IMG/VR virus record: IMGVR_UViG_3300046724_000534
Coordinates: 1-55,514 of that record
Reading direction: 5' to 3' (one strand)
Origin: a virus
Length of the DNA stretch: 55,514 bases
The position numbers and the translations under genes are program-made. The notes beneath the pieces are model-generated. The model was not told the origin of the DNA and did not search any database. It worked only from the letters and a program-made list of their open reading frames with translations. How positions within the stretch are numbered: the first letter of the stretch is position 1; every line of letters begins with the position of its first letter. This document shows, in pieces, positions 34,262-49,550 of the stretch.

Positions 34262-34869
34262 TGCCAGTCTACAAGCAAAAGATCGTCTTCCGAACCAATG
34301 GCGTCAACAATCCCAATCAAACCGTTTTAGACCTTGTAGCCGGATCGAATATCACCCTGACCGTGATGCAGGAAGAAGTTATTATCTCGGCATCGGGCGG
34401 CGGTGGCGGCACGACTGCTACCTTTGTCGATGACGAGACGCCGACCGGAGTGATTGACAGCGCCAACACATCTTTCGCGGTGGCTACGGCACCCGATCCC
34501 CAGGATTCCCTCGAACTGTATCTGAATGGAGTGTTCCAAGACTACGGCGTGGATTACACCTTGGCCGCAACTGCCATCACCTACGCGAATCCTCCGCAAA
34601 CCGGAGATGTGCTCTTGGCCTATTACCGCCTAGCGACCGCAGGGCCAGCTGCGACCTTTGTCGATGATGAAACACCCATGGGCACCATCAACGGCATCAA
34701 CGATACTTTTATGCTGGTGAACGCTCCGAGTCCAGGTAATTCCCTCAAACTGTACTTAAATGGGCTTCTTCAGAATTACGGTGTGGATTACACTCTAGCC
34801 GGGTCCACCATCACGTTCGCAGCGCCGCCACAAACGGGAGACATCTTGCTTTGCAATTATAGGTTCTAA
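34261..34869 (+). CDS. Repeat fibre-tip-like protein, 202 aa
   Basis: An N-terminal unit (D-L-V-A-G-S-N-I-T-L-T, 24-45) matches the repeat of the long fibre protein downstream. After a Gly-rich linker come two tandem units of about 74 residues: T-F-V-D-D-E-T-P-x-G, L-Y-L-N-G-x-x-Q-x-Y-G-V-D-Y-T-L-A and P-P-Q-T-G-D-x-L-L. These units are common in phage fibre and head-fibre proteins. TGATG overlaps the upstream gene. Confidence 0.7.
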   Translation: MPVYKQKIVFRTNGVNNPNQTVLDLVAGSNITLTVMQEEVIISASGGGGGTTATFVDDETPTGVIDSANTSFAVATAPDPQDSLELYLNGVFQDYGVDYTLAATAITYANPPQTGDVLLAYYRLATAGPAATFVDDETPMGTINGINDTFMLVNAPSPGNSLKLYLNGLLQNYGVDYTLAGSTITFAAPPQTGDILLCNYRF

Positions 34870-37614
34870 ATGACAAAAATTAACCTGTCGGAACAAGCCG
34901 CTGCTCTCGGAACAGATGGGCAAGCCATTTACAATAATTTGGGCACTCTTTCGGCAAAGAATTTTCCGACTGGTACGAATTTCTCCCTGAATGGCAGTTC
35001 CTCGAGTGTATCTCTTGTGGCTGGCGCCGGAATCACACTCAATAGTGGCGCATCCAGCATCACCATCGTCGGAGCAACAACCGCAGCCACAGGCACACTC
35101 TATGTTTCAGCCACCTCTGTCGCTGGAGGAGCAACTGCCGGAACAGTCACCTCGGCACCGATTGCCAGCACGCTTTCTCTCGTCGCGGGAACCAATATCA
35201 CCCTCAGTCAAGCGAGCAATGCGGCAATTACCATTATCGGCCCGGCCACCGCTGCCGCAACAAACTTCGCTCTCAACGCATCGACGAGTTCTGTTTCGCT
35301 TGTTGCAGGTGCAGGGATTGGTCTGGCCTCAAATCTTTCGACAATCTCGATTTCCGCGAGTGTGCAGACTTCCTCGATTTCGCTTTCGGCGCGCGGCGTA
35401 ACGACATCCAGTTCAGCAGGAACCTTTTCCAACCTGCTGAACGTCTCTGGTGCCGGGATTATCAGCGTCGGCGTAGGCGCAGGCAGCATAACGATTTCCG
35501 CTACGACTCCCGCGGTGACAAACTTCAGCACCATTTCCCTGACAGCGCTCGGAAATACTACCAGCAGTAATGCCGGTACTTTTAATAATCTGCTTAATTT
35601 CTCGGGAGCGGGAATTGCAAGCGTGGGCGTGGGCGCAGGCGGCACAGTAACTATTTCCGTCCCGGCACCTGCCGCCGCTACGAATTTTTCCCTGAACGCT
35701 TCTTCCTCGAGCGTGTCGCTGGTCGCAGGAGCAGGAATCGGACTCGCCTCCAACCTTTCGACGATTACGATTTCGGTTTCCACGGCGGCTACGAATTTCG
35801 CGCTCAATGGCTCGACCTCTAGCGTTTCGCTTGTGGCCGGCGCCGGGATTGGCCTGGCTTCGAACCTCTCTACCATCTCGATTTCGGCGAGCGTGCAAGC
35901 GGAAGGAACGCAGACCATCAGCGCCTCGGGTACATCGGTCACCGGAACGGCTATTTCTCTTGCTTTGGTTGCTGGAGCGAACGTCACCCTGAATACCGCC
36001 ACGGCAGCCGGCGCTATGACCGTCTCGATCGCCGGTCCCACCGTCCCCGCCGCTACGAATTTCTCGCTGAATGCCAGCTCCTCAAGCGTGTCTCTCGTTG
36101 CTGGCGCGGGCATCGGATTCGCTTCCAACCTCTCGACCATCACGATTTCCGTTTCCACGGCCACGCCGAGCGTCGTGAGCGGTTTCGGAATTAGTTCCAT
36201 TACCGCCGGAGGAGCGACAGCGGGAACAACAACGACTGCCACTGGAACGATTCTTTTAGCTGCTGGATCGAATATCACCCTGTCCTCGTCGGCAGGCGGA
36301 ATCACTGTCATCGGCCCCAATCCGAGCGCTGGCGCAGCCGGAACAAACACGATTTCAGCATCCGGTACGTCGATCGTCGGCACCGCGCTCTCTCTCGCTC
36401 TTGCGGCAGGCGACAACATCAGCTTGCAGACGGCCACCGGCGCCGGTTCCATGACCGTTTCTGTGAGTGGATTGAATGCTCTTTCAGCCAGCGGTTTTGC
36501 CTCCTCGACCGGCACGATGACTCTTGCCGCCGGAACCGGGCTTTCCATAACCACCGCAGCCTCAGTCATTTCGTTTCTGACCTCTGGTACGGCCAGCTTG
36601 CTCGCCTCCAACATCAGCCTGACGCAGAATATGTCGTTGCAAGAAATTGGCGGGTCCATCGCCAGCGCCAGCGGAACGGTCACTGGTACCGCCGGTTTTG
36701 GCAGTTCCCTGTTCCTGCAACGCATGTTTGTGCCGGCAGCCATGACCTTGAGCGAAATAGACCTCGCCCTGGCAATGTCGTTCAATGCCACATCGAACGG
36801 CGCCGGAACCCTCAGTCAATCCTTTGTGGTCTATTCCTTCGTCAACAGTTCGTCGCTAGCCAGCGTAGCCAGCGCATCGGCAACCTTTGCCTGGCAGACC
36901 GGCACATCGACCTCTGGCGCTGTTGTGTCGCTCACGCAGTTTCAAGGTGGCTGGTCGGTGCCGAAGATCCATCCCATGACTTTCGCCACGACCAGCATTC
37001 CGGCAGACGAATATGTGGTCGGCAACCTCCTGAACTTCGCGCAGGCATCGAGCACCTGGACTATCAATCTCCTGGGAGCGGTTGCTTCGGTCACTAACAG
37101 CACAACGATTTCGAATGTGACCAGCATCAACACCACAGCCGTTTCCGGTTTGAGCAATGCGGGAACGGCGCAAGTTGTGGTTCTAAGCAATGCGGGCACA
37201 GCGGCTATTAATAACTACGAACTGAGTTCCAATACGTTTGCAGGATCGGCGGCGAGTGCCATCGCCTCGGCCACGTCGATTTCCACGAAGACATTCAGCA
37301 TTCAACCACGCACCATATTCAGCGCCGCGCCAACGGTAGCCAGCAGGACGGTATTCACCGCTGCACCTACAGCAATCACCGCCGTCAGCACCGTTTCCGG
37401 CGTAACGCAGTCAATCGTGCCGCAATACCTGACCGTGCCGAATCTCGTGTACATCGGAACCGGATCCACGACTTCGGCCTTGCCCAGCGTGTTCCTGGCC
37501 GGGATTATGAGCACGGGCGCTATTCCCGTGTCCATCAACATTACGTCTACAGCGGTTACCTATTGGGGAACGGCGGCGGGCGCTCAACCGTACTTCGCCT
37601 TGGTTGGTAGTTAA
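34870..37614 (+). CDS. Long repetitive tail-fibre-like protein, 914 aa
   Basis: Residues 30-560 consist of about twelve Ser/Thr/Ala-rich units with the core S-V-S-L-V-A-G-A-G-I-G and a closing S-T-I-T-I-S strand. A different beta region (570-720) and a coiled, Ser/Thr-rich part (730-914) follow. There is no Cys or signal peptide. Trimeric fibre of beta-prism type is the best guess. Its high Ser/Thr content and a glycosyltransferase two genes downstream make it a candidate for glycosylation. Confidence 0.7.
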   Translation: MTKINLSEQAAALGTDGQAIYNNLGTLSAKNFPTGTNFSLNGSSSSVSLVAGAGITLNSGASSITIVGATTAATGTLYVSATSVAGGATAGTVTSAPIASTLSLVAGTNITLSQASNAAITIIGPATAAATNFALNASTSSVSLVAGAGIGLASNLSTISISASVQTSSISLSARGVTTSSSAGTFSNLLNVSGAGIISVGVGAGSITISATTPAVTNFSTISLTALGNTTSSNAGTFNNLLNFSGAGIASVGVGAGGTVTISVPAPAAATNFSLNASSSSVSLVAGAGIGLASNLSTITISVSTAATNFALNGSTSSVSLVAGAGIGLASNLSTISISASVQAEGTQTISASGTSVTGTAISLALVAGANVTLNTATAAGAMTVSIAGPTVPAATNFSLNASSSSVSLVAGAGIGFASNLSTITISVSTATPSVVSGFGISSITAGGATAGTTTTATGTILLAAGSNITLSSSAGGITVIGPNPSAGAAGTNTISASGTSIVGTALSLALAAGDNISLQTATGAGSMTVSVSGLNALSASGFASSTGTMTLAAGTGLSITTAASVISFLTSGTASLLASNISLTQNMSLQEIGGSIASASGTVTGTAGFGSSLFLQRMFVPAAMTLSEIDLALAMSFNATSNGAGTLSQSFVVYSFVNSSSLASVASASATFAWQTGTSTSGAVVSLTQFQGGWSVPKIHPMTFATTSIPADEYVVGNLLNFAQASSTWTINLLGAVASVTNSTTISNVTSINTTAVSGLSNAGTAQVVVLSNAGTAAINNYELSSNTFAGSAASAIASATSISTKTFSIQPRTIFSAAPTVASRTVFTAAPTAITAVSTVSGVTQSIVPQYLTVPNLVYIGTGSTTSALPSVFLAGIMSTGAIPVSINITSTAVTYWGTAAGAQPYFALVGS
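34957..36560 (+). repeat. Coding repeats of the fibre gene (about 12 units)
   Basis: Units share the peptide core S-V-S-L-V-A-G-A-G-I but differ at most third codon positions, for example GTGGCTGGCGCC versus GTCGCAGGAGCA for the same four residues. Amino acids are held constant while the DNA is not. Confidence 0.75.
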
Positions 37615-37616
37615 GC

Positions 37617-38582
37617 ATGAAGAAACTTCTTCTACTTCTGGGAGTGCTGCTCGCCATCCCAGCAGCCTCCCGTGCGCAGTCTATGGGAACCTGCTGGGGT
37701 AACGCAATTGCCGGTTCCACATCCACTATCACGGCTGCGGTTACTCCGACTGGCGGATCTGGTCATGCTCTGGTGGCCATGGGGAATCAAGGCACTGGAA
37801 ACACTACGGAAGTTTTCAGCGACAATTCCGGCTCTAATATCTGGAATCATCCCTCGGCGGTACAAGCCAATGCCGTGGCCGGAGTTTGGGGTGTGGACGG
37901 GTATGTGCTCGATCCGGTGGGCGGAAGCTACACCGTGACCTTAACTTTTGGCGCGCCATCTGTCTTTTCATCCATGGAGGTCTGTGAACTTTCAGGACTC
38001 GTCGCACCGGCAACCCTCGATTCCGGAGCAACCACGGCTGGCGTGCTCACCATTTTTAACACGACTTTTACCAGTTCATCCTTTACTACTACCTCTCCCG
38101 ACCTGATTGTCATGCTCGCCGCTGTCAACAGCGGTGCCCGCACCTGGAGTGTTGGAACGATTGCCGGAGTTACAGCAACATTGGGGACTGGAGCCTTCGA
38201 TAATGGCAGGGAGTGGGCTAACGTAAATTCCCCACAAACGGGAACGGCGAGCATGAATTTCGGAACGAATCAGGGATGGGTCGCTTTCACCATGGGATTC
38301 AAGACAAATCCACCACCAACGATTTATATGCTCGTCGCTCGAAGTTTCATTCCGCCGATCCTCGTGGCTCTCAAAGGTGCCATCGGGTTCTTTTTCTACT
38401 TCGTCATGTTTATGGCCTTTGTCTCGATCATCATTTCCAACTGGCACATGGTCAAGAATTTCTTTCTGTCCATCTTCCGGGTGGGAAAGCGCCATACCAA
38501 TCGTCTCCTCGATCGCAACGCTGCCGAAATTAGAAAGCGCATGAACGAAGAGAAGCGCGAAATGGCAAGGATTCGAAAATGA
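37617..38582 (+). CDS. Exported lectin-like membrane protein, 321 aa
   Basis: A Sec signal peptide (about 20 residues, ending A-S-R-A-Q-S) leads to a beta-rich domain with two Cys (22-230), Gly/Thr/Ser-rich and jelly-roll-like. After a Pro linker a hydrophobic segment (about 245-283) spans the membrane, and a basic, coiled tail of about 35 residues ends the protein. The topology would put the beta domain outside and the basic tail inside. Receptor modification or superinfection exclusion are possible roles. Confidence 0.65.
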   Translation: MKKLLLLLGVLLAIPAASRAQSMGTCWGNAIAGSTSTITAAVTPTGGSGHALVAMGNQGTGNTTEVFSDNSGSNIWNHPSAVQANAVAGVWGVDGYVLDPVGGSYTVTLTFGAPSVFSSMEVCELSGLVAPATLDSGATTAGVLTIFNTTFTSSSFTTTSPDLIVMLAAVNSGARTWSVGTIAGVTATLGTGAFDNGREWANVNSPQTGTASMNFGTNQGWVAFTMGFKTNPPPTIYMLVARSFIPPILVALKGAIGFFFYFVMFMAFVSIIISNWHMVKNFFLSIFRVGKRHTNRLLDRNAAEIRKRMNEEKREMARIRK

Positions 38583-39310
38583 AGAAACCCAAACAATTTC
38601 CATCCTGGTTTGTGCCGGAATCTGGCGGGCGGCATAACCGCAATCTCAGCCAGTCCATCGCACGCCTGGAAACGGCCAAGTCCTACAAGGATTTATCGAC
38701 GGTCATGGTCCTGCCGACCCGCGGCATGATTCCCGCCAAGGTCTGCAACGCGCTGTGGGGGATGATTACGCCGATGAATCAGAAGTTTCTGCGCATGGTC
38801 ATCGAAGGCGAGGAAGTCGGCAAAGCGTATAACGATTCGGTGGAGTCGATTCTGGCGCATCCGGAACTGTCCAAATGGAAATACATGCTCACCGTCGAGG
38901 AAGACAATCTTCCGCCGCCGGACGGCCTATTGAAACTGTACGAGTCCATCGACAAGTTCGATGCCGTGGGCGGGCTCTACTGGACCAAGGGAGAAGCTGG
39001 AATGCCCATGATCTACGGTTCTCCCAAGGAAATGCCTAAAGAGTTTAAGCCGCAGGTGCCAATTCCAGAATCAATTCAAGAATGTAACGGCTTAGGAATG
39101 GGCTTTACCTTGTTCCGGATTTCGATGCTGAAAAAGATCGAAAAACCATGGTTCAAGACGGTGCAAGAATACCAGCATGGGCAGGGAGCGCGTTTAATGA
39201 CGCAAGACCTTTTCTTTTTTGAAAAGGCCGGCAAACAAGGGTATCGTTTTGCCTGCGATACGCGCTGCAAAGTCGGGCATCTCGATCCAAATTCGGGAGA
39301 AATCTGGTGA
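38579..39310 (+). CDS. GT-A type glycosyltransferase, 243 aa
   Basis: It starts with an ATGA overlap. V-M-V-L-P-T-R-G opens the nucleotide-binding half; E-E-D-N at 107-110 stands at the DxD position, and G-L-G-M-G-F-T-L-F near 175 and T-Q-D-L-F-F-F near 208 follow the usual order. The donor is unknown. It sits downstream of the fibre and exported proteins on the same strand, and is thus likely to act on one of them or on the host surface. Confidence 0.75.
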   Translation: MKKPKQFPSWFVPESGGRHNRNLSQSIARLETAKSYKDLSTVMVLPTRGMIPAKVCNALWGMITPMNQKFLRMVIEGEEVGKAYNDSVESILAHPELSKWKYMLTVEEDNLPPPDGLLKLYESIDKFDAVGGLYWTKGEAGMPMIYGSPKEMPKEFKPQVPIPESIQECNGLGMGFTLFRISMLKKIEKPWFKTVQEYQHGQGARLMTQDLFFFEKAGKQGYRFACDTRCKVGHLDPNSGEIW

Positions 39311-39792
39311 AGCAAAAACAACTAATCAAGCTGAATATCGGCGACGGCTGCCCCGAAGGATTCAAGGATATTCCTACGCCGATCGACTGGCGATCCCTCA
39401 AGAAAGAAAGCGTCGAGGAGTTTCGCTGCGCCTACTATTTCCAGCAGATACCCGGCAAAGAGCGCGGGCCGTGGATGGATGAACTCTGGCGCGTGCTCGT
39501 TCCCGGCGCGAAAGCCTTGTTCATCACGCAATACTGGACTTCCTTCCGAGCGTTCATGGACTATCGCAGCGAGTGGCCGCCGATTGTCGAGCAAAGCTAT
39601 CTCTATTTCAACAAGGCGTGGCGCGAATCACAGAAGGTCAACTGGTGCCACTGCGATTTCGAGATTGTCGGGCAGGGACACATCCCCGATCCCGAAGCGC
39701 AAGGGAAGGCCCAGGAAGTGCGCGACCACTGGATTAAGCATTACGCGAACGCAGCGCTGGACTTGCATCTCGTCGTACAGAAGAAAGCCTAA
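39307..39792 (+). CDS. SAM methyltransferase-like protein, 161 aa
   Basis: GTG at 39307 overlaps the upstream TGA as GTGA. K-L-N-I-G-D-G near residue 9 looks like motif I and M-D-E-L-W-R-V-L-V-P-G-A-K-A-L-F-I near 57-73 is the usual post-motif helix and strand. The chain is short and the acidic motif II is weak, so it may be degenerate or need a partner. Its stop overlaps the convergent gene at 39789 by 4 bases. Confidence 0.6.
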   Translation: MKQKQLIKLNIGDGCPEGFKDIPTPIDWRSLKKESVEEFRCAYYFQQIPGKERGPWMDELWRVLVPGAKALFITQYWTSFRAFMDYRSEWPPIVEQSYLYFNKAWRESQKVNWCHCDFEIVGQGHIPDPEAQGKAQEVRDHWIKHYANAALDLHLVVQKKA

Positions 39793-40466
39793 GCCCACAA
39801 ACAGGATCTACGTGGGGCGTGAACTTCGCACAAAATTCCGCAACCGTTGCACCAGGTTCCTTGCTCGACAATTACGGTCGATTCGCTCTGGCAGTTGGAA
39901 CAGGGCTCTCCGCGGTTCTTCTGGCTCCGGAAATAGTAGTGGTACATCACCTGCGGGATGACGTGTTCCGTTTTCAGAACGCCGCGCTTTCGCATCCGGT
40001 CGGCCCAGCGTACATCCTCTCCGTGCCCACCTTCGAATGGCTCCGCGAGTGCCAGTTCCCGGCGCATCGGGTTGATGTGGGAAATGTCCCGATAGAATCC
40101 ATCGTCGTTCTCGAACCAGCTACCATACGCGAGCGAATGATATGTCTTCTTGGGAAGACGCATGGCGTTGATGTAGCACTGCACCTGAAAGCCGATATAA
40201 TCGACCCCATTGAGCAGCGGCAGGATCGTTTCAAGGTAGTGTGCATCCGGAAAATCGTCATCGTCAAAAAACGCCACATATTCACTTTGCGAGGAGCGTA
40301 AAAGCATATCCCTGTTTTCGCCGAGCGTGTAGGTCGGGTCGCACATGCGAACGCGCGTTGCGAAACTGTAGTTGTAACCGGAACGCTGCCGGGAAAATTC
40401 CTGAAGGAGTCCGTACAGGAAACCCTTGCGCGTCGGCATGGTCAGGATCAGGAGTTCAAATTTCAT
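39789..40466 (-). CDS. GT2-type glycosyltransferase with C-terminal Zn ribbon, 225 aa
   Basis: The GT-A half has T-R-K at 12, a Leu-rich helix and F-F-D-D-D-D at 66-71, a clear nucleotide-sugar/metal site; G-G-H-G-E-D-V near 146 could be the acceptor side. The last 40 residues hold C-S-N-C-x-S-E-S-T-V-I-V and C-N-G-C-G, the same ribbon as in the gene at 25240 and the next gene. It is the last gene of the modification block. Confidence 0.8.
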   Translation of the reverse strand: MKFELLILTMPTRKGFLYGLLQEFSRQRSGYNYSFATRVRMCDPTYTLGENRDMLLRSSQSEYVAFFDDDDFPDAHYLETILPLLNGVDYIGFQVQCYINAMRLPKKTYHSLAYGSWFENDDGFYRDISHINPMRRELALAEPFEGGHGEDVRWADRMRKRGVLKTEHVIPQVMYHYYFRSQKNRGEPCSNCQSESTVIVEQGTWCNGCGILCEVHAPRRSCLWA

Positions 40467-41314
40467 ATCCTATCCCAAATGCTTCCACAGTGATTGCAAT
40501 GAAACTTACCCACTCCAATCGCCACGGTCGAGAGGCTGTCGCAGTGTGGGCACATGCCGGCGCTGCGAATATTGTTGTGCGGCGGAACCCACTTCGAAGT
40601 ATCGACGCCGCGTTGCATGAGCGCGGCGAGTTTATTGGCATCGCGCTGGCGCTCATTCGCCATTTCCGGGCTGTAATACAGCGTTTCGGGATCGTCCTCG
40701 GCATGGCGCTGCAAGCGTTCTCGGGTGTTCTCGTCCACCGCGGCCATGCCCTGCGAATAGTGATGGTGCTCGATATTGAAGTTCAGGAAGCGTCTCCTGC
40801 CGATCATGTTGGCCAGTTCACAAATCCAGGCGTCCCCAAAATCCGAGGAGAAGTACGGCGGAATAAAATAGCCGAGCGCCGTCACCCATTTTCGATGCAC
40901 GAAGGCGTGCGGTCCGAAGTTGCTGCCATGGCCGAACACATCTGATCCATGCGCCAACATGATTTTGTCGGGCACCTCGGAAAAGGCTTCCTCGAGCATG
41001 GCATCCCAACCGGGTGTCTTGAACACAATGTCATCGTTGGCCTGACAAACAATATCCCCGGAACAAGCGACGAAGCATTCGTTCCAGTAAATCGTCATCT
41101 TGCGCAGACGCGGACCAATGAGTTTAACGATACGCTGACTGTTCGTGGCTGTTATTTTAATATCCGGGCACTCCATGAAACTTTCAATGTCATCTTCATC
41201 GAAGCGCACCACAATTTCAATCTTAGTGAGATCGTCAGCGGTATCGAATACGCTTTCGCACATACGCCTGATAATTTCAGGACGTTTGCGGGAAGGTAAG
41301 AGCAAAGAAATCAT
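40463..41314 (-). CDS. GT2-type glycosyltransferase with C-terminal Zn ribbon, 283 aa
   Basis: L-L-L-P-S-R-K-R-P at the start, Q-A-N-D-D-I-V-F at 91-98 (DxD position) and G-D-A-W-I-C-E near 160 give a GT2 pattern. The C-terminal 35 residues carry C-P-H-C-D-S-L-S-T-V and C-N-H-C-G, the ribbon found in three genes of this phage. It overlaps the next gene as ATGA. Donor and acceptor unknown. Confidence 0.8.
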   Translation of the reverse strand: MISLLLPSRKRPEIIRRMCESVFDTADDLTKIEIVVRFDEDDIESFMECPDIKITATNSQRIVKLIGPRLRKMTIYWNECFVACSGDIVCQANDDIVFKTPGWDAMLEEAFSEVPDKIMLAHGSDVFGHGSNFGPHAFVHRKWVTALGYFIPPYFSSDFGDAWICELANMIGRRRFLNFNIEHHHYSQGMAAVDENTRERLQRHAEDDPETLYYSPEMANERQRDANKLAALMQRGVDTSKWVPPHNNIRSAGMCPHCDSLSTVAIGVGKFHCNHCGSIWDRI

Positions 41315-42285
41315 CGGATAGCCGCCTCGTAGATGGGACGCACCGCTTCAATCGAGAATGTTTGTCTGCCAATTTCCCGGCTGCGCTCACCGCACAGTTG
41401 CGCGTATCGGGGCTTCGATAAACACAAGTCAATAAATTCACACATCCCCTCGAAGCGATCCGTGCAAACGCCGTTGTCCTCGATGTAGTCGGCGTAGGAC
41501 AGTCCTGGCTGATCCCGCGCCACGACTGGCATTCCCGCGCACATGGCTTCGGTGAACGAAGTGCACAAGGGCCGGCCACCCGAGCGATCGAGATTCACGA
41601 ACACCCGGTACTCGCTCATCATCTCCGCCATCTGCCGTGAAGTCTTAAACTCCATGGCTCCATCATGATGGTGCATCTTCCCCGGAAAGCGTTCGCACAA
41701 GCGTTCCCAGAGATCGACGCCGCATATCGTTTTATCCGCGGGACGCCACAAGTCTTTGCCGGCGAGAACGAACAGGGCTTCTTCGCGCTTTCCCGTCCAT
41801 TCACGCTCGAACCACCAGTCGCCGACGGGCACGGGAACGAACTTCGCCTGCGGATATTTTTCCTGCCAATACGGAACCGCCGATGGCATTCCAAGGAAGA
41901 TAGGAAAATCTTTAATCTTTTTCTTGTAGTGCTCCGGGAGATAGTTCGGATGATCGTACCAGCACACAAACACCAGGATGGGGCATTCGACGCGATGGCA
42001 ATGGTTCTTCCAGTCGGCGGCGTAATTGAATGTTTCGACCGATTCGATCAGCAGATCGAACTTCGAGAAGTCGCATTCCGAGTAGGGTTTTTCCTCGAAA
42101 CGAATGTCCAGACCAACTTCCTGCCATTCCGCGATGCGGTCTTTGGCTTTGGCGAGATTGAGAATCTTCTTGTCCCAACTATAAAGCTGATCGCAGGGCG
42201 GGCCGATGACAGTAAGGCCGGGAAAGATCGCAGCCATTTTTTCCACGAGAGCTGCAACCGTTGGGTAAACGAGTCCGACCTTCAT
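41311..42285 (-). CDS. GT1/GT4-type glycosyltransferase, 324 aa
   Basis: ATG at 42285 overlaps the upstream TGA. The two-domain GT-B pattern is visible: M-K-V-G-L-V-Y-P at the start, A-L-F-V-L-A-G-K-D-L-W near 175 and a C-terminal E-A-M-C-A-G-M-P-V-V-A-R-D near 255, with Glu at the UDP-sugar position. The neighbouring GT2 genes suggest ordered addition of sugars. Donor unknown. Confidence 0.8.
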   Translation of the reverse strand: MKVGLVYPTVAALVEKMAAIFPGLTVIGPPCDQLYSWDKKILNLAKAKDRIAEWQEVGLDIRFEEKPYSECDFSKFDLLIESVETFNYAADWKNHCHRVECPILVFVCWYDHPNYLPEHYKKKIKDFPIFLGMPSAVPYWQEKYPQAKFVPVPVGDWWFEREWTGKREEALFVLAGKDLWRPADKTICGVDLWERLCERFPGKMHHHDGAMEFKTSRQMAEMMSEYRVFVNLDRSGGRPLCTSFTEAMCAGMPVVARDQPGLSYADYIEDNGVCTDRFEGMCEFIDLCLSKPRYAQLCGERSREIGRQTFSIEAVRPIYEAAIR

Positions 42286-43022
42286 GTGCCCATCTCCGGT
42301 AATTGCACGTTCACGAGTCCCCAATCGGGCTCATTCCGTTGTCCGACGAGCCGATGAATGTCCGAGGAGTGAATCGACATTCTGCCCACATGCGCGGAGC
42401 GGTCATGCTCCTGGTGGAAGATCGGATTCTTCAGTTCCACTTTGCCCATGCCGATTTTTACCGCGCTCCAGCACAAAAGAGAATCTATGTGCGAATAACT
42501 CACCACGTCGAGATAGCCCGTCAGAAATTTCCACTTGTTCGCGTGCATCAGAATGAAGTCGCCGGGACCGTGAGCAATCTGCACGAGTTTGCCGTCACGG
42601 ATGTCGTGCCGCGCCGCATGATAGAACGCGCCGGGCAAGAGCACATCGGATATTTCCGCGCGCACTTCCGGTGTCAAGAGGATGTCCGGATTCATGCACA
42701 GAATCCATTCGCCGTGTGCGCGACGGATTCCGGCATTCTTGGCGCGATACTCGAAGAATGGCAAGAGGTCAGCGCCGTGCATCTGGTTGTGCAAATCGCG
42801 TTCCACGGTGATTACCCGGATGCCCTTATGCTGGATAACTTTTCGGATGGGCGGACGATCTTCCGGAGGATTCCATTCGACGAAGATAATCTCCGCTTTG
42901 AGCGGCAGGATGGTTTCGATCGAGCGGTTCATACGGTCGAGGAAGTCGCCACAATGGTTATCGTTCCGCCCGGAGAGCACCACGGTCAGGTTCACCGTGC
43001 CCGCTCTCTTACTTTGCGCCAC
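42282..43022 (-). CDS. GT2-type glycosyltransferase, 246 aa
   Basis: V-V-L-S-G-R-N-D begins the nucleotide half; L-C-M-N-P-D-I-L-L at 108-116 occupies the DxD position with one Asp. H-G-P-G-D-F-I-L-M near 152 and a terminal Trp/Asp-rich part follow. There is no zinc ribbon. Its start overlaps the end of an HNH gene by 31 bases, so the N-terminal codons may have been affected by that insertion. Confidence 0.75.
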   Translation of the reverse strand: MAQSKRAGTVNLTVVLSGRNDNHCGDFLDRMNRSIETILPLKAEIIFVEWNPPEDRPPIRKVIQHKGIRVITVERDLHNQMHGADLLPFFEYRAKNAGIRRAHGEWILCMNPDILLTPEVRAEISDVLLPGAFYHAARHDIRDGKLVQIAHGPGDFILMHANKWKFLTGYLDVVSYSHIDSLLCWSAVKIGMGKVELKNPIFHQEHDRSAHVGRMSIHSSDIHRLVGQRNEPDWGLVNVQLPEMGT

Positions 43023-43444
43023 AATCCGCGATAGTTTGGATCTTGAGGCCAGAGTCCAGCGTGATACCAGCGACGAAGATTTTCTTCATGGACACCGAGT
43101 TTATCGGCCCAATCTTGCAGAATCATCGTTTCATTGCCAACAGTGATTCGGATATTTCTTCGGAAGTTGCGACACTGTTCCCAATGTGTGATCCATCGGC
43201 AATTCCCCGGTTCGTAGTTTCCGTCATTGTTAATGCGGTCCAACTGTTTTCCTTTAGGTTTCTCTCCCATGTCAGCAAGGAAGTTTACAAATACTTTCCA
43301 TCGGTCACAGACAGTTATTCCACGAGCACCGTAGTAACGATAAACAGGAGATTTAGAATTAGAGCATCTCTGAATCATATCGGCCCAACAAGTATAGATG
43401 GGGCTTTTACGTCCGGTTACGCAATGAAGGTGCGTTTTTGGCAT
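42992..43444 (-). CDS. HNH-type homing endonuclease, 150 aa
   Basis: The order W-A-D-M-I-Q-R-C-S-N, Y-Y-G-A-R-G-I-T-V-C-D-R-W and L-D-R-I-N-N-D-G-N-Y-E-P-G-N-C-R-W matches a widespread phage HNH group. A C-terminal helix-turn-helix (L-Q-D-W-A-D-K-L-G-V) likely reads the target. It stands between the radical SAM and GT2 genes on the same strand, so it is an insertion into the modification operon. Confidence 0.85.
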   Translation of the reverse strand: MPKTHLHCVTGRKSPIYTCWADMIQRCSNSKSPVYRYYGARGITVCDRWKVFVNFLADMGEKPKGKQLDRINNDGNYEPGNCRWITHWEQCRNFRRNIRITVGNETMILQDWADKLGVHEENLRRWYHAGLWPQDPNYRGLWRKVRERAR

Positions 43445-44803
43445 TTATCTGTTCACTGGACGAAGAGAGATGTTTTCGGTGATCCAGTCGTGAAGCATCT
43501 TCCGAGCCTCATGTAATTCCATTCTGGTCATCGTTGGAATATCCATGGTAATCGTATCCGGGTTCTCTGGGTCCAGCTCCCACATGGATGAAAAGTTACT
43601 TGCTGTTATAGTTACTCCGAACCGTTCCGGATGACTCCATACCTCGCACCCAGGAAATGGTTGAAATTGGTGAAGACTCGCGGCATCTGGACGGCACTTC
43701 TCAAGCCATTCTTGCATTTCGTAAATGGACTCCCAAGTTTCACCGGGAAAGCCGATGAGTAGATAAGCCCTAGTGGCAATACCCGCATCTCGACAAAGTT
43801 CAATACCCTTGGTGTTGGCTTCTGGCGTGGTGCCCTTGTTCATTTCCTTGAGCATCCTCCGACTGCCATGCTCGACGCCAAAACCTAATTCGGTGCAACC
43901 GAGTTTGGCCATATCCCGGAACAGTTGCGGATCGAAAAGATTCACTCTGCTCCAACCGCGCCACAGCATTCCGTAGTCGTGAAAAAGCGCGGCAAGTTCC
44001 CGGCAGCGTTTGGCCTTGATCGTTAGAACATCGTCCCACACACGCAATGCCGTTACGCCGAGTTCGGCGAGCGCTTTGACTTCCGCTTCGATTTGCTCGA
44101 AGGTTTCTTCGCGGAGTTTCGTTCGTGCGTCAGCGCAGAAAGAGCAACCGTAAGGACACCCGCGAGCAGTCCACAGCGATCCAATAGTTCTTTCAGCAGC
44201 GTCGATAGAGTGTCCGTGGATGGAAGCGACTTGGAGTCCACCTTTTTCATAATTCCCCCAAAGATCATAGGCTGGAAGTTTCATCTTGGTTACGTCGGGG
44301 AGCGGCGGCGAGGGATTGTGCTGCATTCCGAACGGGCCGAACCAGGCAACTCCGGCAATGCGCGTCACATCCTCTCCCCGGTCCCAGGCGTTGCAGAAAT
44401 CGACAAACGATTCCTCGCACTCCCCGGTCATCAGGAAATCGAACCCTTCGAAATATTTCTTCTGCTTGAATTGCGCGTGCGGTCCTTCGATGATGTAGGT
44501 GACGTGAGGGCCGCCGGCCACCTTCACCTTGGCCGGCCACAGCGCGGCCAGTTGTCCGCCAAACTCGGCATTGGGAGTGACGATCGACACACCCAGGATG
44601 TCGCACGGTTCCATCTTGTCAGGATCGACTTGCAAGCGATTCGTTTCAGGATCAAATGTCGAGATGCGGTGGCAGTCGATGATTTTGACTTCATGGCCCG
44701 CTTCGCGGAGAGCTGCGCCGAGATACAAAAGACCAAGCGAGGCGTGTAGGCTTGGATTAAAAAGCGCAAACGATGGACCGCCAGCAAGAATCACTTTAGC
44801 CAT
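43445..44803 (-). CDS. B12-binding-type radical SAM enzyme, 452 aa
   Basis: The N-terminal 150 residues have the cobalamin-binding-type fold (L-G-L-L-Y-L-G-A-A-L-R, V-A-G-G-P-H-V). R-G-C-P-Y-G-C-S-F-C near 215-224 binds the 4Fe-4S cluster, followed by the beta-barrel with E-H-G-S-R and G-F-P-G-E-T. Such enzymes methylate or rearrange unactivated carbons. The B12 His motif (D-x-H-x-x-G) is absent, so cobalamin binding is uncertain. It is set among glycosyltransferases; substrate may be a sugar or a nucleobase. Confidence 0.85.
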   Translation of the reverse strand: MAKVILAGGPSFALFNPSLHASLGLLYLGAALREAGHEVKIIDCHRISTFDPETNRLQVDPDKMEPCDILGVSIVTPNAEFGGQLAALWPAKVKVAGGPHVTYIIEGPHAQFKQKKYFEGFDFLMTGECEESFVDFCNAWDRGEDVTRIAGVAWFGPFGMQHNPSPPLPDVTKMKLPAYDLWGNYEKGGLQVASIHGHSIDAAERTIGSLWTARGCPYGCSFCADARTKLREETFEQIEAEVKALAELGVTALRVWDDVLTIKAKRCRELAALFHDYGMLWRGWSRVNLFDPQLFRDMAKLGCTELGFGVEHGSRRMLKEMNKGTTPEANTKGIELCRDAGIATRAYLLIGFPGETWESIYEMQEWLEKCRPDAASLHQFQPFPGCEVWSHPERFGVTITASNFSSMWELDPENPDTITMDIPTMTRMELHEARKMLHDWITENISLRPVNR

Positions 44804-44879
44804 AAATTTGTCGTGCCGATGAAGGAGTGGGAAGGTCTATCCCATTGACATCATACCTGTATAGAGTCAGGCGTGTCAT
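44796..44879 (-). CDS. Candidate miniprotein, 27 aa (downstream half of a coupled pair)
   Basis: ATG at 44879 overlaps the stop of the previous 27-codon frame as ATGA and this frame ends 8 bases into the radical SAM gene. The peptide is of folded type (L-T-L-Y-R-Y-D-V-N-G-I-D-L-P). Together with the upstream frame it looks like one small protein broken in two. Confidence 0.35.
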   Translation of the reverse strand: MTRLTLYRYDVNGIDLPTPSSARQIYG

Positions 44880-44959
44880 GTGATGCGGCCCCACTCTCCC
44901 GAGGAAACGCATAGCTCCATTACGGCAAACGCCTCGGTCCATGCCTTCACTATCCGCAT
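44876..44959 (-). CDS. Candidate miniprotein, 27 aa (upstream half of a coupled pair)
   Basis: The frame runs from ATG 44959 (AAGGGA directly before it) to TGA at 44876. It contains K-A-W-T-E-A-F-A-V-M-E and S-S-G-E-W-G-R-I-T. It lies in the 200-base gap between two large genes and couples by ATGA to the next small frame. A longer alternative frame in this gap, 44796-44978, shows low-quality sequence in comparison. Confidence 0.3.
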   Translation of the reverse strand: MRIVKAWTEAFAVMELCVSSGEWGRIT

Positions 44960-45005
44960 TCCCTTGACGAATCGGCACGTCCCCCTTTCGGGAAATTGAA
45001 TGTAT

Positions 45006-46031
45006 TTACAATATCCTCCTGCACGCCGAAACCCATGCGCGCATGAGTGTAGCAGTTTCGTGATAAAAAGGATTAGACTCCTGGCACAGAAATTCCGCAA
45101 GCGACAAGTAGGCTTCCTCGACCGTGGTTCCCGTGAGTTTTGCTTCGATGAGTTTCGGCAGCAATTCCTCGAGCAGTAGAATCGGCCCAATTTCCTTTTG
45201 CACATCCTTGAGATAGACATGCGAATTTCTTTTGTGCGTCACGACCGGTGACCCGAAGCGAGCGGTCCAACCCATATGCTTCGCTACTTTTAAGGCGAAG
45301 TAACCCTGAAAGATGTCGCCGAAGCGGTCCATCATGCTGGTCATGCGGATAAAATAATACGCGGGCATGAGGTCCCGGTGCACGGCGGTATTTTGAGAGT
45401 TAATGGGGCACCAGGTATTCTTCCCAAGAACCACGGAATCCACCGGGCGCACCGGATGAAAGGGAGTGTACAGCCAAGTCAGGGCATCGAGGTCAGGGTC
45501 ACCAACCCACATTCCGGCATTCAGATAGACAGAATTATCGTTTTTCTTAATTACGGGATAAGAGTTTTCTCCTGTCCTTTCGTAATAGGGAAATCCTCTA
45601 GGATAAACGGACGACCAGCCAAGTAAATTACAATTATTAAACCAGTCTGCGTTTACTTCCCCTTCATTGCTACTTAATAATCCGCGTGCATGTTCACCGA
45701 TAAAATCCTGATCTTCCGGCGAGTAATTATCATCATCGATGGACACAATCATCTCGGCGCCACCCGCAAGAGCCATAAGGTATCCGACGTTGCGGCGATT
45801 GTCGGAGTTCCAGGGGATGTCATCTCTTGAAAAACCAATGCGATCGAGAAACTTTACTTGCTCTAATCCTCGAACTTCTTTTACCCCGCCCGGAACAAAA
45901 AAAGCAGGGGTCTTCGTATCGGTAATCAGGTAGATAGTTGCTTCGCGTCCATACTTGGCGAAATTAGCGAGATAACCGTTCAGGAGTTCCGTGCAATCGT
46001 GGATGCTGGTAACGACGATCGCGGCTTTCAT
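45006..46031 (-). CDS. STELLO/RGP-like glycosyltransferase, 341 aa
   Basis: The N-terminal half has V-V-T-S-I, L-I-T-D-T-K-T-P and S-D-N-R-R-N-V-G-Y-L, then S-I-D-D-D-N-Y at 98-104 as the metal and nucleotide site; N-A-G-M-W-V-G-D-P-D and G-K-N-T-W-C-P-I-N-S-Q-N follow. This order is typical of the STELLO and reversibly glycosylated polypeptide group. The C-terminal part is helical and ends with C-R-R. Donor unknown. Confidence 0.75.
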   Translation of the reverse strand: MKAAIVVTSIHDCTELLNGYLANFAKYGREATIYLITDTKTPAFFVPGGVKEVRGLEQVKFLDRIGFSRDDIPWNSDNRRNVGYLMALAGGAEMIVSIDDDNYSPEDQDFIGEHARGLLSSNEGEVNADWFNNCNLLGWSSVYPRGFPYYERTGENSYPVIKKNDNSVYLNAGMWVGDPDLDALTWLYTPFHPVRPVDSVVLGKNTWCPINSQNTAVHRDLMPAYYFIRMTSMMDRFGDIFQGYFALKVAKHMGWTARFGSPVVTHKRNSHVYLKDVQKEIGPILLLEELLPKLIEAKLTGTTVEEAYLSLAEFLCQESNPFYHETATLMRAWVSACRRIL

Positions 46032-46309
46032 AGGGTGATATCATCTTGTCTCAGGACGCGTCTGCGGCCCCTGGCACTGATAGAAACCAACCGCTTATAT
46101 AGATCCCCGCCCCCTTTAAGCGGTGAATCCCGATTAATGGAATCATACGTTGCGAATGCCAGTTTTCTTTTAGTCGTCGATTTGTAGTCCCACGGAATAT
46201 CGTAAGGTACATGCCACCAAGGGTGACAGGAAGTAGCTTCTGCGATTTCGATGCGATACCTCGTAACATTGGCAATATGTCCCGTTCCCTTGCAGCGAGG
46301 ACATTTCAT
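46028..46309 (-). CDS. Protein with one DnaJ-type C-x-x-C-x-G-x-G motif, 93 aa
   Basis: C-P-R-C-K-G-T-G at residues 3-10 is a half zinc site; the second half may be a partner chain or the later Cys near 28. The rest is mixed and basic. Coupled by ATGA to the glycosyltransferase and by overlap to the methyltransferase. Role unknown. Confidence 0.55.
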   Translation of the reverse strand: MKCPRCKGTGHIANVTRYRIEIAEATSCHPWWHVPYDIPWDYKSTTKRKLAFATYDSINRDSPLKGGGDLYKRLVSISARGRRRVLRQDDITL

Positions 46310-47043
46310 GCCTTCCTCGCAACCAAAAGCAAATGATGGCCGAGGAACGGTTCAAACCAGCGATGCGTCACGAGGTTCCAGGGAAAGGCTTTTTTCCACT
46401 GATGCTGTACGTACTCCTCAATCCGCCATGGGAAAATATGGGTTTTTTTAATCGACACCACTTGAAATCCACAACTTTCGAGGAGCCGCTTCGCTTCGCT
46501 CGCCGAATACCATTTCACCAGGGGACATCCCGCCTGCGCTTCCGGCTGCGCCCCCATTAAATTCTTCCAGCTCCACTTCGCGTAGAGCATGATGCGCAGT
46601 TCCCCGTCATCAGCGAGTTCCCGGTGCGCGAGGCACAAAACCTTTTCCGGATGCGGGGTATGATGCAGGACGCCAAAACTGTAGATCAAATCAAACGGAC
46701 CCGCCGGCAAAAACTCTTCCGCATCAGCTAAAATAAACTTTACGGGGGCGTCGATCTGCGAAGCGCGCGCCGCCGCTAACCGCAAACTCTCGACCGACGC
46801 ATCCACCGCCACGACTTCCGCCCCAGCCCCTAAAAACTGCAACGTGTCGGTGCCGATCCCGCAGCCGATCTCCAAAACCCGCTTGCCTGTCCAGTGAGAA
46901 AAGTCAGCGAAAGAAATAATGTGCGGCTCGACTGTGTACTTCCGGATGGACACTTCTTCCGACCACAGCGGCGTGCCGACGGGCGCCGTGCCATGCCGTA
47001 CGTTACATGGCCTTTTGTTCCAGTAGTCGGTGAGTTCATTCAT
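46306..47043 (-). CDS. Class I SAM methyltransferase, 245 aa
   Basis: ATG at 47043 is favoured because it overlaps the upstream stop by only 8 bases; ATG at 47085 is a longer option. V-L-E-I-G-C-G-I-G-T at 56-65 is motif I, V-V-A-V-D-A-S near 78 motif II, F-D-L-I-Y-S-F-G-V-L-H-H near 117 motif IV. This is the UbiE/small-molecule type, so sugar or lipid methylation is more likely than DNA. It is in line with the glycosyltransferases around it. Confidence 0.85.
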   Translation of the reverse strand: MNELTDYWNKRPCNVRHGTAPVGTPLWSEEVSIRKYTVEPHIISFADFSHWTGKRVLEIGCGIGTDTLQFLGAGAEVVAVDASVESLRLAAARASQIDAPVKFILADAEEFLPAGPFDLIYSFGVLHHTPHPEKVLCLAHRELADDGELRIMLYAKWSWKNLMGAQPEAQAGCPLVKWYSASEAKRLLESCGFQVVSIKKTHIFPWRIEEYVQHQWKKAFPWNLVTHRWFEPFLGHHLLLVARKA

Positions 47044-47233
47044 AGAATGGGGCTTCATGCTCTCCATCAAAAGTGCCTGATTCAATCATGTACCGAAGCG
47101 CCTCTCTTAATTCCGGGGAAGAACGCAGTTTCTTCATTGCCGATTCTTCGGCCCAGCGCGCTTGTTGCAGCGAAATACCCAATTCCTTCGCTACTTCCTT
47201 CAATTCCTTTACGAAGTGAATGTTAGTTCGCAC
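47036..47233 (-). CDS. Sigma-70 region 4-like HTH protein, 65 aa
   Basis: GTG at 47233 has GGAG about 10 bases upstream. L-K-E-V-A-K-E-L-G-I-S-L-Q-Q-A-R-W-A-E-E-S-A-M-K-K-L-R matches the helix-turn-helix of sigma region 4.2, including the final K-L-R. The rest is a short acidic tail. It may bind promoter DNA or the host RNA polymerase flap as a small regulator. It overlaps its neighbours. Confidence 0.55.
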   Translation of the reverse strand: MRTNIHFVKELKEVAKELGISLQQARWAEESAMKKLRSSPELREALRYMIESGTFDGEHEAPFYE

Positions 47234-47844
47234 TGCTCTTTGCTCCGAATCGCTTCATCGTGCCTCTTGAACATATCCATGCGCTCACAAGTCCAGAGCG
47301 GAAAATTAGAATCACAGGAATCCGCTTCGACGGCATGAGCATGTTGCAGTTTCCGCAGCGTGCCAGCTCGCCCGTAGTGAAATTTCCTGCCACAGCCATG
47401 CGCCAGATCACTCCATCGCTGTGCCGTCAACTTGAATTTGTCCGTGCCGCCCAGGAATATGCCGCAGAAAAAATGCAGCACTTCGGACACTTCGGCTGTG
47501 CTCATTCCATCCTGTACAGCCAGATACCAGGGCCAACTATTCCGCAGTTGCAAACGCCAACCCAGCGAAAATTCAAGGGAATTGCGACCACCCGCCACAA
47601 TATCCGGCACCACCGCTATGATTGGATCGGAATTGACTTTTTCCGCTGCGTCCAATCGGCGTAAAAACTGATCGGCAGGAAACGATTCCCCGCGCGTCCA
47701 GGCCACATATGCCCCATTGTCAAATCCCCACGGCTCGAACTCGTATGGAGTAGCTGGCCTGGTGGCGAACATTCGTCCCCATCCCCAAGCCTTCAGGAGT
47801 GCTATATTTTTTCGGCTGCGCGTATCTCCAACCATGATTTTCAT
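47209..47844 (-). CDS. DpdA-like (TGT-family) transglycosylase, 211 aa
   Basis: The order P-W-G-F-D-N-G-A-Y (about 38-46), V-V-P-D (78-81), V-Q-D-G-M (about 110), G-I-F-L-G-G-T (near 130), H-Y-G-R (near 155) and E-A-D-S-C-D (near 174) fits the small TGT-barrel proteins of phages, often called DpdA-like or queuine ribosyltransferase-like. TGT enzymes exchange guanine for a 7-deazaguanine; DpdA does so in DNA. No preQ0 synthesis genes are in the window, so a base would have to come from the host. The family call is from pattern; DNA as substrate is inference. Confidence 0.6.
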   Translation of the reverse strand: MKIMVGDTRSRKNIALLKAWGWGRMFATRPATPYEFEPWGFDNGAYVAWTRGESFPADQFLRRLDAAEKVNSDPIIAVVPDIVAGGRNSLEFSLGWRLQLRNSWPWYLAVQDGMSTAEVSEVLHFFCGIFLGGTDKFKLTAQRWSDLAHGCGRKFHYGRAGTLRKLQHAHAVEADSCDSNFPLWTCERMDMFKRHDEAIRSKEQCELTFTS

Positions 47845-48644
47845 TTAGAAACCATCTGATTCACGAGGTCAGCGGCTTCGGAGAGTGCGGCATCGACCCC
47901 CACTTTCTCCGCGGTGTACCGGAACATGCGGTTGTCGCGGGGAAGGCATGGACCGGAATAGGGTCTGCCTGGTTCCAGATAACACGGATTGATGCGTGGG
48001 TCGGCGCCTACGGCTTCCATGATCTTTTTCGAATCGGCGCCCATTTTCTTGGCCACGAGATGCAACTGATTAGCGAGAGAAATCTTCATGGTGAGCGCGC
48101 AGTTAAGCGTAATCTTAGCCAGTTCCGCCTCTATCAGCGACATCCGGATAATCGGCACATCGTTGATGGCCTGATACAGCCGCTCCGCCCGATCCCCGGC
48201 AGCTTTCGACCCTTCCCCAATCAACGTGAATGCCGGATTCACCAGGTCCGCGTCCACGTACTCGAGCCTGATAAATTCCGGCTTATAAACGATGTTATCG
48301 CCCACAATCTTCCGAAACTCATCGCACGAGCCCGGCACCGTCGTACTCGTCACAATGTAGAGGTAATCACGTTCCATTTGTGGCCTATGCCGTTTGGCAC
48401 TGCTCGCAAATTCGGTTAAGGCAGATAACAGATATTCGTTTGAGAATGATCCATCAGCAAGAGAAGGAGTCTGCACAATGAAGATTGTGGCTGTTGTGAC
48501 CAGTACAGCACTATCGACATCGAGCGTCTCGGAAATATTCTTGTCACGATCGTACCCAACCGCCTTAAACCCCTTGCGGCGCAGCATCCCCAGGATCGGC
48601 CGACCCACCTTCCCCATCCCGCATACGCAAATTCGCTCCGTCAC
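47841..48644 (-). CDS. UDP-glucose dehydrogenase-like protein, shortened, 267 aa
   Basis: GTG at 48644 follows GGGGTG. C-V-C-G-M-G-K-V-G-R-P at 6-16 is the NAD site. K-P-E-F-I-R-L, L-A-K-I-T-L-N-C-A-L-T (catalytic Lys) and Y-S-G-P-C-L-P-R-D-N (catalytic Cys near 230) are kept, so oxidation of a nucleotide sugar is plausible. The chain is about 150 residues shorter than usual and lacks the C-terminal UDP-binding domain. It may supply a uronic acid to the glycosyltransferases of the block. Confidence 0.8.
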   Translation of the reverse strand: MTERICVCGMGKVGRPILGMLRRKGFKAVGYDRDKNISETLDVDSAVLVTTATIFIVQTPSLADGSFSNEYLLSALTEFASSAKRHRPQMERDYLYIVTSTTVPGSCDEFRKIVGDNIVYKPEFIRLEYVDADLVNPAFTLIGEGSKAAGDRAERLYQAINDVPIIRMSLIEAELAKITLNCALTMKISLANQLHLVAKKMGADSKKIMEAVGADPRINPCYLEPGRPYSGPCLPRDNRMFRYTAEKVGVDAALSEAADLVNQMVSK

Positions 48645-48651
48645 CGCTTTT

Positions 48652-48867
48652 TCACCCCGCACAATCGACAATACCCCTTCTCGAACCGGTGCGCGCGCCT
48701 TCGGCGCCCATCGACGATACACGTATTCTTGGATGACACCCGCATAAGCAATTCTTCTTGAAACACAGCCCGTGCCGCCCCGCACGACAATTCCCGCTCT
48801 CCCGTGCCACCGATCGCTGGTCCAGCTTCGCCACCCGCTTCAAGAATGCACCTTCCCAGAAGTCCAC
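48652..48867 (-). CDS. Small zinc protein with C-R-A-G-R-H motif, 71 aa
   Basis: GTG at 48867 has GAGG upstream. The motif C-R-A-G-R-H-G-L-C-x4-C-L-C-G-C-H in the middle equals in plan the first Cys cluster of the gene at 33615. The tails are basic. The motif is widespread in phage miniproteins, with no known role. It overlaps the previous gene by 28 bases. Confidence 0.6.
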   Translation of the reverse strand: MDFWEGAFLKRVAKLDQRSVARESGNCRAGRHGLCFKKNCLCGCHPRIRVSSMGAEGARTGSRRGIVDCAG

Positions 48868-49007
48868 TTTACCTCGTTCGTCTCAAACTCAACCTCACCC
48901 AGCGCTCCACACTCCGGACACCAAAAATACTGCCCGCTACTACATGTTCCGCGGGAACACAGATACCAACTCTCCTCATGCTTCCCGTGATGCACCGGAA
49001 AAACCAA
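48840..49007 (-). CDS. Small Zn-ribbon protein, about 55 aa
   Basis: TTG at 49007 is the best start found; AAGG lies upstream but spacing is not ideal. The product has C-S-R-G-T-C and C-P-E-C-G, a compact zinc site, and a terminal beta part with E-V-E-F-E-T-N-E-V-K-W. It lies between two other Cys-rich miniproteins. The start is uncertain. Confidence 0.45.
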   Translation of the reverse strand: MVFPVHHGKHEESWYLCSRGTCSSGQYFWCPECGALGEVEFETNEVKWTSGKVHS

Positions 49008-49020
49008 TTCCTTAAATACC

Positions 49021-49200
49021 TTAGTACCGCTCGTCTTTGCCACGATACGCCGTCCCCCACTTATGCTTCCGTACCTCCCGCATATCCTGGCACGACCTGC
49101 ACCAACATTCTTGCCAAATCGACTCTGCCTTGTGTATCTCGATCCTTTCGTACTTATCGTGCAAATACCCCAACCCCTTATCCACAGGCATCTCATTCAT
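49021..49200 (-). CDS. Small Cys protein, 59 aa
   Basis: ATG at 49200 overlaps the RHH stop as ATGA. The middle has C-W-C-R-S-C and W-G-T-A-Y-R-G-K near the end, with charged helices around. Fewer than four clear ligands are seen, so a partner is needed if zinc is bound. Function unknown. Confidence 0.5.
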   Translation of the reverse strand: MNEMPVDKGLGYLHDKYERIEIHKAESIWQECWCRSCQDMREVRKHKWGTAYRGKDERY

Positions 49201-49550
49201 TCCGTCACCGCCTTCCCCCCACACTGCCAACACCGATAACCCTTCTCAGTCCCATGCTTACACCGCGCCACAGCCTTCGGATTCGCGTTCCGGCAGTGCG
49301 CGTATGGACACTTCCCCGGTCCATACCCGAAGTCATGGTCACATGGCTGACCCATTGCATCGGCAGCAGGCTCCCGTCTCTTTGCCTCTCGTACCGGCTC
49401 AACCCGCTGCACGTCCGGTACTGCACTTCTTTCCTCGTTACACCGCCCTCGTACCCATTCCGATAAACTTTCTCCATTTTCTCCCGCCTTCCGCTTCCAC
49501 TCCTCAAGCTCCGCGCTCGGCAACCGGAACTTGATCGTCGCGTCATTCAT
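49197..49550 (-). CDS. Ribbon-helix-helix regulator with C-terminal zinc site, 117 aa
   Basis: Residues 3-40 (T-I-K-F-R-L-P-S-A-E-L-E-E-W-K-R-K-A, then L-S-E-W-V-R-G-R-C) are a ribbon-helix-helix: a strand that binds DNA followed by two helices. After a linker come two Cys/His groups (C-P-Y-A-H-C, C-K-H, C-W-Q-C-G-G). The gene starts the modification block. Four copies of a 10-base repeat cover its promoter, the last one touching its ATG, so self-repression is likely. Confidence 0.7.
   Translation of the reverse strand: MNDATIKFRLPSAELEEWKRKAGENGESLSEWVRGRCNEERSAVPDVQRVEPVREAKRREPAADAMGQPCDHDFGYGPGKCPYAHCRNANPKAVARCKHGTEKGYRCWQCGGKAVTE

Follow-up and report, generated by a model that had tools for sequence, protein, structure and literature searches.

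Two tail-to-tail glycosylation gene sets of a soil phage, probably directed at virion proteins

Glycosylation of virions by phage-encoded glycosyltransferases (GTs) is already known, for mycobacteriophage capsid and tail, and has been invoked for the cluster F1 phage Maravista (PMC11256854). Here we describe a 55.5-kb IMG/VR virus record of a soil phage (IMGVR_UViG_3300046724_000534, analyzed over its whole length of 55,514 nucleotides and called the window below), which encodes portal, terminase and major head protein and carries two tail-to-tail glycosylation gene sets (Table 1). Module A lies on the plus strand (34261-39792) and couples a Ser/Thr-rich fibre-like protein to a GT and a methyltransferase-like protein, and module B lies on the minus strand (48785-39789) and holds a predicted sugar-ring mutase of family GT75, a B12-binding radical S-adenosylmethionine (SAM) enzyme, four GTs, a methyltransferase and a dehydrogenase. 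An initial annotation of the window had taken most of these genes for one tightly coupled island; this resolves into the two convergent modules and some strays, with the genes at 38579 and 39307 on the plus strand behind the fibre gene and all others it listed on the minus strand. We regard two virion-glycosylation modules as the best explanation of the locus, and as a probable one.

Several described systems come close to parts of the locus. The mutases MtdL and Hyg20 (GT75 enzymes of A201A and hygromycin biosynthesis; PMC9937993) resemble the protein at 45006, whose sequence matches the solved MtdL structure with E = 8e-67 and which has all catalytic and metal residues and a Ser at the site of base selectivity, but the phage protein is about 35 residues shorter and lies with a radical SAM enzyme and GTs instead of in an antibiotic cluster. 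Like the GTs that glycosylate mycobacteriophage virions, those of module B are phage-encoded and soluble and have virion proteins as their inferred acceptors, here deduced from the genes, whereas the furanose mutase, the B12 radical SAM enzyme and the truncated dehydrogenase are additions. The glycan cluster of cyanophage S-T4 (NC_048049, a 181-kb genome) contains a 31% identical GT75 homolog amid GTs, a methyltransferase and nucleotide-sugar genes, with heptose pathway genes in place of the radical SAM and UDP-glucose dehydrogenase (UGDH)-like genes. PhpK/ApyD-type B12 radical SAM enzymes have the domain layout and CxxxCxxC motif of the protein at 43445, which nevertheless falls far below the PhpK P-methyltransferase NCBIfam (122.8 bits against a curated cut-off of 600). 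The deazaguanine-inserting DpdA and tRNA-guanine transglycosylase (TGT) enzymes (Hutinet et al. 2019, PMC6884629) share their fold and invariant catalytic-type residues with the protein at 47209, but this is only 211 aa long, about half the length of a TGT, and no preQ0 genes were found in the window. Finally, phages that place pentoses on cytosine (Thanatos, RB69; PMC12838424) likewise perform sugar chemistry with GTs, but encode a dCMP hydroxymethylase-type enzyme that has no counterpart here. What is new is the combination of GT75 mutase, B12 radical SAM enzyme, truncated dehydrogenase and zinc-ribbon GTs, together with a recurrent fibre-GT-methyltransferase cassette; neither was found described in the literature searched, with many subscription journals outside its coverage, nor did that literature yield a report of a phage pyranose mutase.

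With the GT75 and radical SAM proteins as queries, 11 related IMG/VR contigs were collected, and module B is syntenic across these and the window (12 phages), most or all of the block recurring in the relatives in the order UGDH-like dehydrogenase, methyltransferase, GT75, radical SAM, GT2, GT1 and two zinc-ribbon GT2. Chance is excluded because eight genes keep both order and identity, with dN/dS of about 0.04-0.4 where measurable, i.e., under purifying selection (the out-of-frame GT1 of L005 being left out of these comparisons). The radical SAM gene is the most conserved (78-89% identity in the 11 relatives, dN/dS 0.04-0.10), and the GT1 is 60-76% identical; losses fall mostly at the upstream end of the block, and L032 is without the GT2 at 42282. 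Joint conservation, which the initial annotation had named as its own check, thus holds for the minus-strand core and fails for the DpdA-like, HNH, 38579 and 39307 genes. In the relatives the block adjoins terminase genes on the same strand, and three of them, of 54-56 kb, have end repeats of 90-127 bases. No host or bacterial source was found: the GT75 query had no match among genome contigs, and the radical SAM query only 23-25% partial matches in bacterial metagenome-assembled genomes. Likewise, the portal, GT1 and fibre of the window have no match among 50,697 named phage records.

Judged from its sequence, the protein at 45006 is a sugar-ring mutase of the MtdL type rather than a polymer-building GT. 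It scores 54 bits with PF03214 (RGP; E = 1.4e-14, cut-off 23.8), while the STELLO family assigned to it by the initial annotation is rejected (PF03385, E = 0.17, 11.1 bits against a cut-off of 27.8). MtdL needs Arg159, which is glycosylated, the DDD motif, D195, S228/Q229, R257, D260 and H287 (PMC9937993), and the phage protein keeps DDD (D99-D101), R145 (corresponding to R159), D180, S212/Q213, R236, D239, H266, R268 and H271, its catalytic residues being invariant in an alignment of six phages. The choice of GDP over UDP depends in MtdL on T13, N42 and S86, the last being Asp in plant UDP-using RGPs (PMC9937993); the phage enzyme has S76 at this last site in a tool alignment, and T8 and K40 (for N42) as placed by eye. 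Ser76 therefore suggests that the product is probably a GDP-furanose. A GDP-sugar is also supported by a 119-kb phage outside this group, L035, where an intein-split radical SAM gene has a GT75 gene directly after it, and then genes for a C-methyltransferase and a GDP-mannose 4,6-dehydratase (4e-90). In another phage group (L041-L043) GT75 is part of a cluster of GTs, located in L043 some 2 kb downstream of the gene for the major head protein.

The remaining enzymes largely bear out the initial annotation, whose three GT2 proteins (39789, 40463 and, more weakly, 42282), GT1, UGDH-like dehydrogenase and B12-type radical SAM enzyme are all recovered by profiles, as is one of its two methyltransferases (46306). 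In the radical SAM enzyme the CxxxCxxC cluster motif corresponds to C216, C220 and C223 and the B12-binding domain is present. The UGDH-like protein retains the NAD-binding and central domains and the catalytic Cys (GPCLPRD motif) and stops after the central domain, without a C-terminal UDP-binding domain, as it does in six relatives (262-298 aa). Zinc ribbons are conserved in relatives for both small GTs (39789 and 40463). Hydropathy indicates no clear membrane segment in any module B enzyme, which fits cytosolic acceptors. A system able to build and methylate a sugar chain, as initially proposed, is supported.

The module A GT at 38579, initially called a GT-A enzyme, matches a PHROG glycosyltransferase profile with E = 0.004 for the window protein and 2e-6 for a homolog, and overlaps both the gene at 37617 and that at 39307 by 4 bases, with the fibre gene at 34870 upstream. 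Relatives of this GT were found in 231 viral contigs, of which the best 80 were examined, giving 69 non-redundant loci. Fibre-like open reading frames (ORFs) were defined by thresholds fixed in the script ahead of counting (a length of 200 aa or more, a Ser+Thr+Ala+Gly+Asn content of 48% or more and no more than 10% charged residues). A same-strand fibre-like ORF lies within 3.5 kb of the GT in 57 of the 69 loci, and is its nearest upstream ORF in 44 of 66. Close to the GT, 75 of 246 large ORFs are of this kind, as opposed to 6 of 131 in the rest of these loci (Fisher p = 4e-10), a strong association rather than proof of function, and one that the p-value may overstate as the far ORFs belong to different modules of these phages; control loci, retrieved with the DpdA family, have only 2 fibre-like ORFs among 447 large ones. 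A methyltransferase homolog follows the GT in 59 of the 69 loci, and clustering of all cassette-locus ORFs gives only three families present in more than six loci (63, 57 and 42 loci), which are those of the GT, the fibre and the methyltransferase. The fibre-like protein of the window itself has homologs in 5 of the 80 loci, and podovirus ctKR88 has a similar layout (fibre, methyltransferase, GT, methyltransferase).

This gene-neighborhood evidence makes a strong case that the 38579 GT acts in glycosylation of the fibre, its likely acceptor, in agreement with the Ser/Thr-rich fibre initially suggested as a target. The three-gene cassette appears widespread in viral contigs, many of them of unrelated phages. 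In the window, however, the methyltransferase-like protein, the second of the two initially listed, looks inactive: its GxG SAM-binding motif, kept in 52 of 69 homologs from the full set of 80 loci, is gone. Positions 33939-39310 are 99.8% identical to contig L138, as against about 67% immediately to the left, 86-93% beyond that and about 97% on the right-hand side, which points to a recent exchange of the cassette as one unit. A recent deletion is rejected as the cause of the short 39307 protein; L138 carries the same motif-less protein, so that its decay is older.

Table 1. Features of the two modules and of the genes inserted in them (E-values follow the profile or structure matched)
Feature	Position	Strand	Evidence
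Tail-fibre-like protein (DUF4183), first gene of cassette A	34261..34869	+	phrog_2710 tail fibre 2e-15, PF13799 8.5e-7
914-aa Ser/Thr/Ala/Gly-rich fibre-like protein, 32% S+T, likely acceptor	34870..37614	+	composition, repeats
Protein with probable signal peptide and one strong hydrophobic segment (Kyte-Doolittle, KD, 2.5 at residue 255)	37617..38582	+	sequence, hydropathy
GT-A glycosyltransferase of the fibre cassette, phrog_1574 family	38579..39310	+	PHROG profile and neighborhood
Degenerate SAM-methyltransferase-like partner, SAM motif lost	39307..39792	+	33% to ctKR88 methyltransferase
GT2 glycosyltransferase with C-terminal zinc ribbon	39789..40466	-	PF00535 1.4e-5, phrog_14775 6e-31
GT2-like glycosyltransferase with C-terminal zinc ribbon	40463..41314	-	phrog_14945 9e-25
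GT1-type glycosyltransferase	41311..42324	-	PF13692 5e-5 (below Pfam cut-off)
GT2-like protein	42282..43022	-	PF00535 0.0023; syntenic in 10/11 relatives
HNH homing endonuclease, insertion, outside the pathway	42992..43444	-	phrog_3377 1e-44
B12-binding radical SAM enzyme	43445..44803	-	PF04055 3e-20, PF02310 1e-8, PhpK-like 1e-35
GT75 nucleoside diphosphate (NDP)-pyranose mutase, predicted GDP-furanose maker	45006..46031	-	PDB 7YUA/7XPR (MtdL) 8e-67
Class I SAM methyltransferase	46306..47085	-	PF13489 1e-18, phrog_22502 2e-44
Compact DpdA/TGT-fold protein, window-specific insertion	47209..47844	-	AlphaFold2 (AF2) model, pLDDT 96
UGDH-like dehydrogenase without C-terminal domain	47841..48785	-	PF00984 4e-25, PF03721 2e-10

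In the scheme that we infer, covering the donor, the acceptor and the order of the steps, the GT of module A would add a sugar to Ser or Thr residues of the fibre encoded just upstream, and the glycan would be capped by the partner methyltransferase, which most relatives keep intact. In module B the GT75 enzyme would contract the ring of an NDP-sugar to give a furanosyl donor. This NDP-sugar is most likely a GDP-linked one that the host provides, such as GDP-L-fucose or GDP-L-galactose. Methylation at carbon or oxygen may be the task of the radical SAM/B12 enzyme and of the class I methyltransferase, and sugar oxidation that of the UGDH-like enzyme. The four soluble GTs would build a chain on some phage product in the cytosol, a virion protein being the most likely, with the DpdA-like and HNH genes as passengers. 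More tentatively, these phages may produce a furanosyl sugar that is methylated by the radical SAM enzyme and unlike any seen so far on virions, while separately the fibre/GT/methyltransferase cassette may pass from phage to unrelated phage as an autonomous unit encoding a glycosylated fibre. If so, phages would contract and methylate sugars and not merely borrow those of the host, and a fibre-decorating enzyme would travel with its fibre; this would explain many GTs annotated as loose "morons", bear on host recognition and the immune visibility of phages, and provide in a single cassette a genetic handle on virion glycosylation.

Several observations weigh against this scheme. The zinc ribbons on two GTs could signal nucleic-acid binding, the GT calls of 41311 and 42282 are under Pfam cut-offs, and the AF2 model of 42282 is poor (pLDDT 45) and was left unused. 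The UGDH-like and methyltransferase genes are absent in three relatives (L034/L038, L025/L039 and L033/L040), L031 has no GT75 beside its radical SAM gene, and the activity of the L035 GT75 is uncertain, as it has a His (placed by eye) at the position of MtdL Arg257. No NDP-sugar synthase was recognized in module B, so that the donor would depend on the host, and in relatives the block stands beside terminase genes and not any one fixed fibre or capsid gene. For module A, the identity of the fibre is based on composition, most of the upstream ORFs matching no known tail family.

Among other explanations, the radical SAM enzyme might modify a protein or another non-sugar substrate and the GTs act apart from it, the shared location reflecting late expression only. 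Its nearest named families (PhpK, ApyD and HpnJ) do include enzymes that methylate phosphorus or carbon in peptides and natural products; yet radical SAM and GT75 genes are adjacent or nearly so in 11 of the 12 phages of this group and are again neighbors, with sugar-nucleotide genes, in the unrelated L035, and we consider such a separation unlikely. Furanose and methylated sugars are common in O-antigens, and phage GTs are often classed as morons, both of which would suit a module B that remodels host surface glycans in the manner of serotype conversion, blocking superinfection or altering receptors. Such remodeling is rather improbable given that module B proteins comprise no membrane-spanning GT, flippase or polyprenyl-phosphate transferase and that the block, unlike lysogenic gtr operons, is placed on the same strand next to terminase genes in the relatives.

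Phage DNA could also be the acceptor, a modified base being decorated by the zinc-ribbon GTs for protection against restriction. The conserved ribbons would fit this, as would DNA-modification-type genes inside the block in single genomes, namely the DpdA-like gene of the window and, between GT75 and radical SAM in L039 (11080-11745), an ORF with a PPCQ motif resembling a cytosine-C5 DNA methyltransferase, which suggests that the block has slots collecting such genes. These genes are, however, not conserved along with the block. Known phages with glycosylated pyrimidines rely on a hydroxymethylase of the thymidylate-synthase family, and no thymidylate-synthase or dCMP hydroxymethylase homolog was found in five genomes (controls gave a signal in 9 of 14), and hence no hydroxymethylated base as sugar anchor; a search for Tet/JBP had no match but was uninformative, as none of its positive controls gave a signal. 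DNA glycosylation thus seems quite unlikely. An equally poor prospect, in our estimate, is that the DpdA-like protein is a working part, inserting deazaguanine into DNA or, as Cap10 does, into protein. As modelled, the protein truly has the TGT fold, the top 35 PDB matches all being TGTs (best E = 2.4e-5) and the fold matches including the Cap10-CdnD complex (9ntn). Across 25 sequences thirteen residues do not vary, among them DNG, PD, Q, GG, K, H, R and S.D, in an order that presumably fits the TGT active-site motifs. But the gene stands alone, as an insertion that the relatives tested do not have, and QueC and QueD are absent from the window (search with working controls), so that it is rejected as a pathway member, even if the host may supply the deazaguanine precursor. 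The DpdA-like fold initially assigned is thus confirmed, and the route to DNA proposed through it finds no support as far as the glycan genes are concerned. For module B, a virion protein remains the probable acceptor.

Some further observations concern the inserted genes and more distant relatives. The compact DpdA/TGT-fold family (phrog_15826, proteins of about 210 aa) occurs widely among viral contigs (L055-L134): an alignment search recovered 87, while a single-sequence search of viral contigs gave none. Weak PTPS/QueD-like matches (E about 4e-4, below cut-off) occur in two relatives without QueC (G004:27911-28207 and G006:23890-24183). The HNH homing endonuclease within the block, missed by the initial annotation, has counterparts at differing points between glycan genes (window, L003, L004, L005, L031, L032 and L033). 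In L035 (8417-10834; IMGVR_UViG_3300021479_000008) the intein splits the radical SAM gene precisely at its iron-sulfur cluster motif, so that TARG and CPYGC lie on either side of it; within this region a different reading frame contains an ORF (9243-10025) that resembles a homing endonuclease. Finally, in Streptomyces phage SF3 (L021) a thymidylate kinase gene and a NUDIX gene are neighbors of a B12 radical SAM gene with 25-30% identity.

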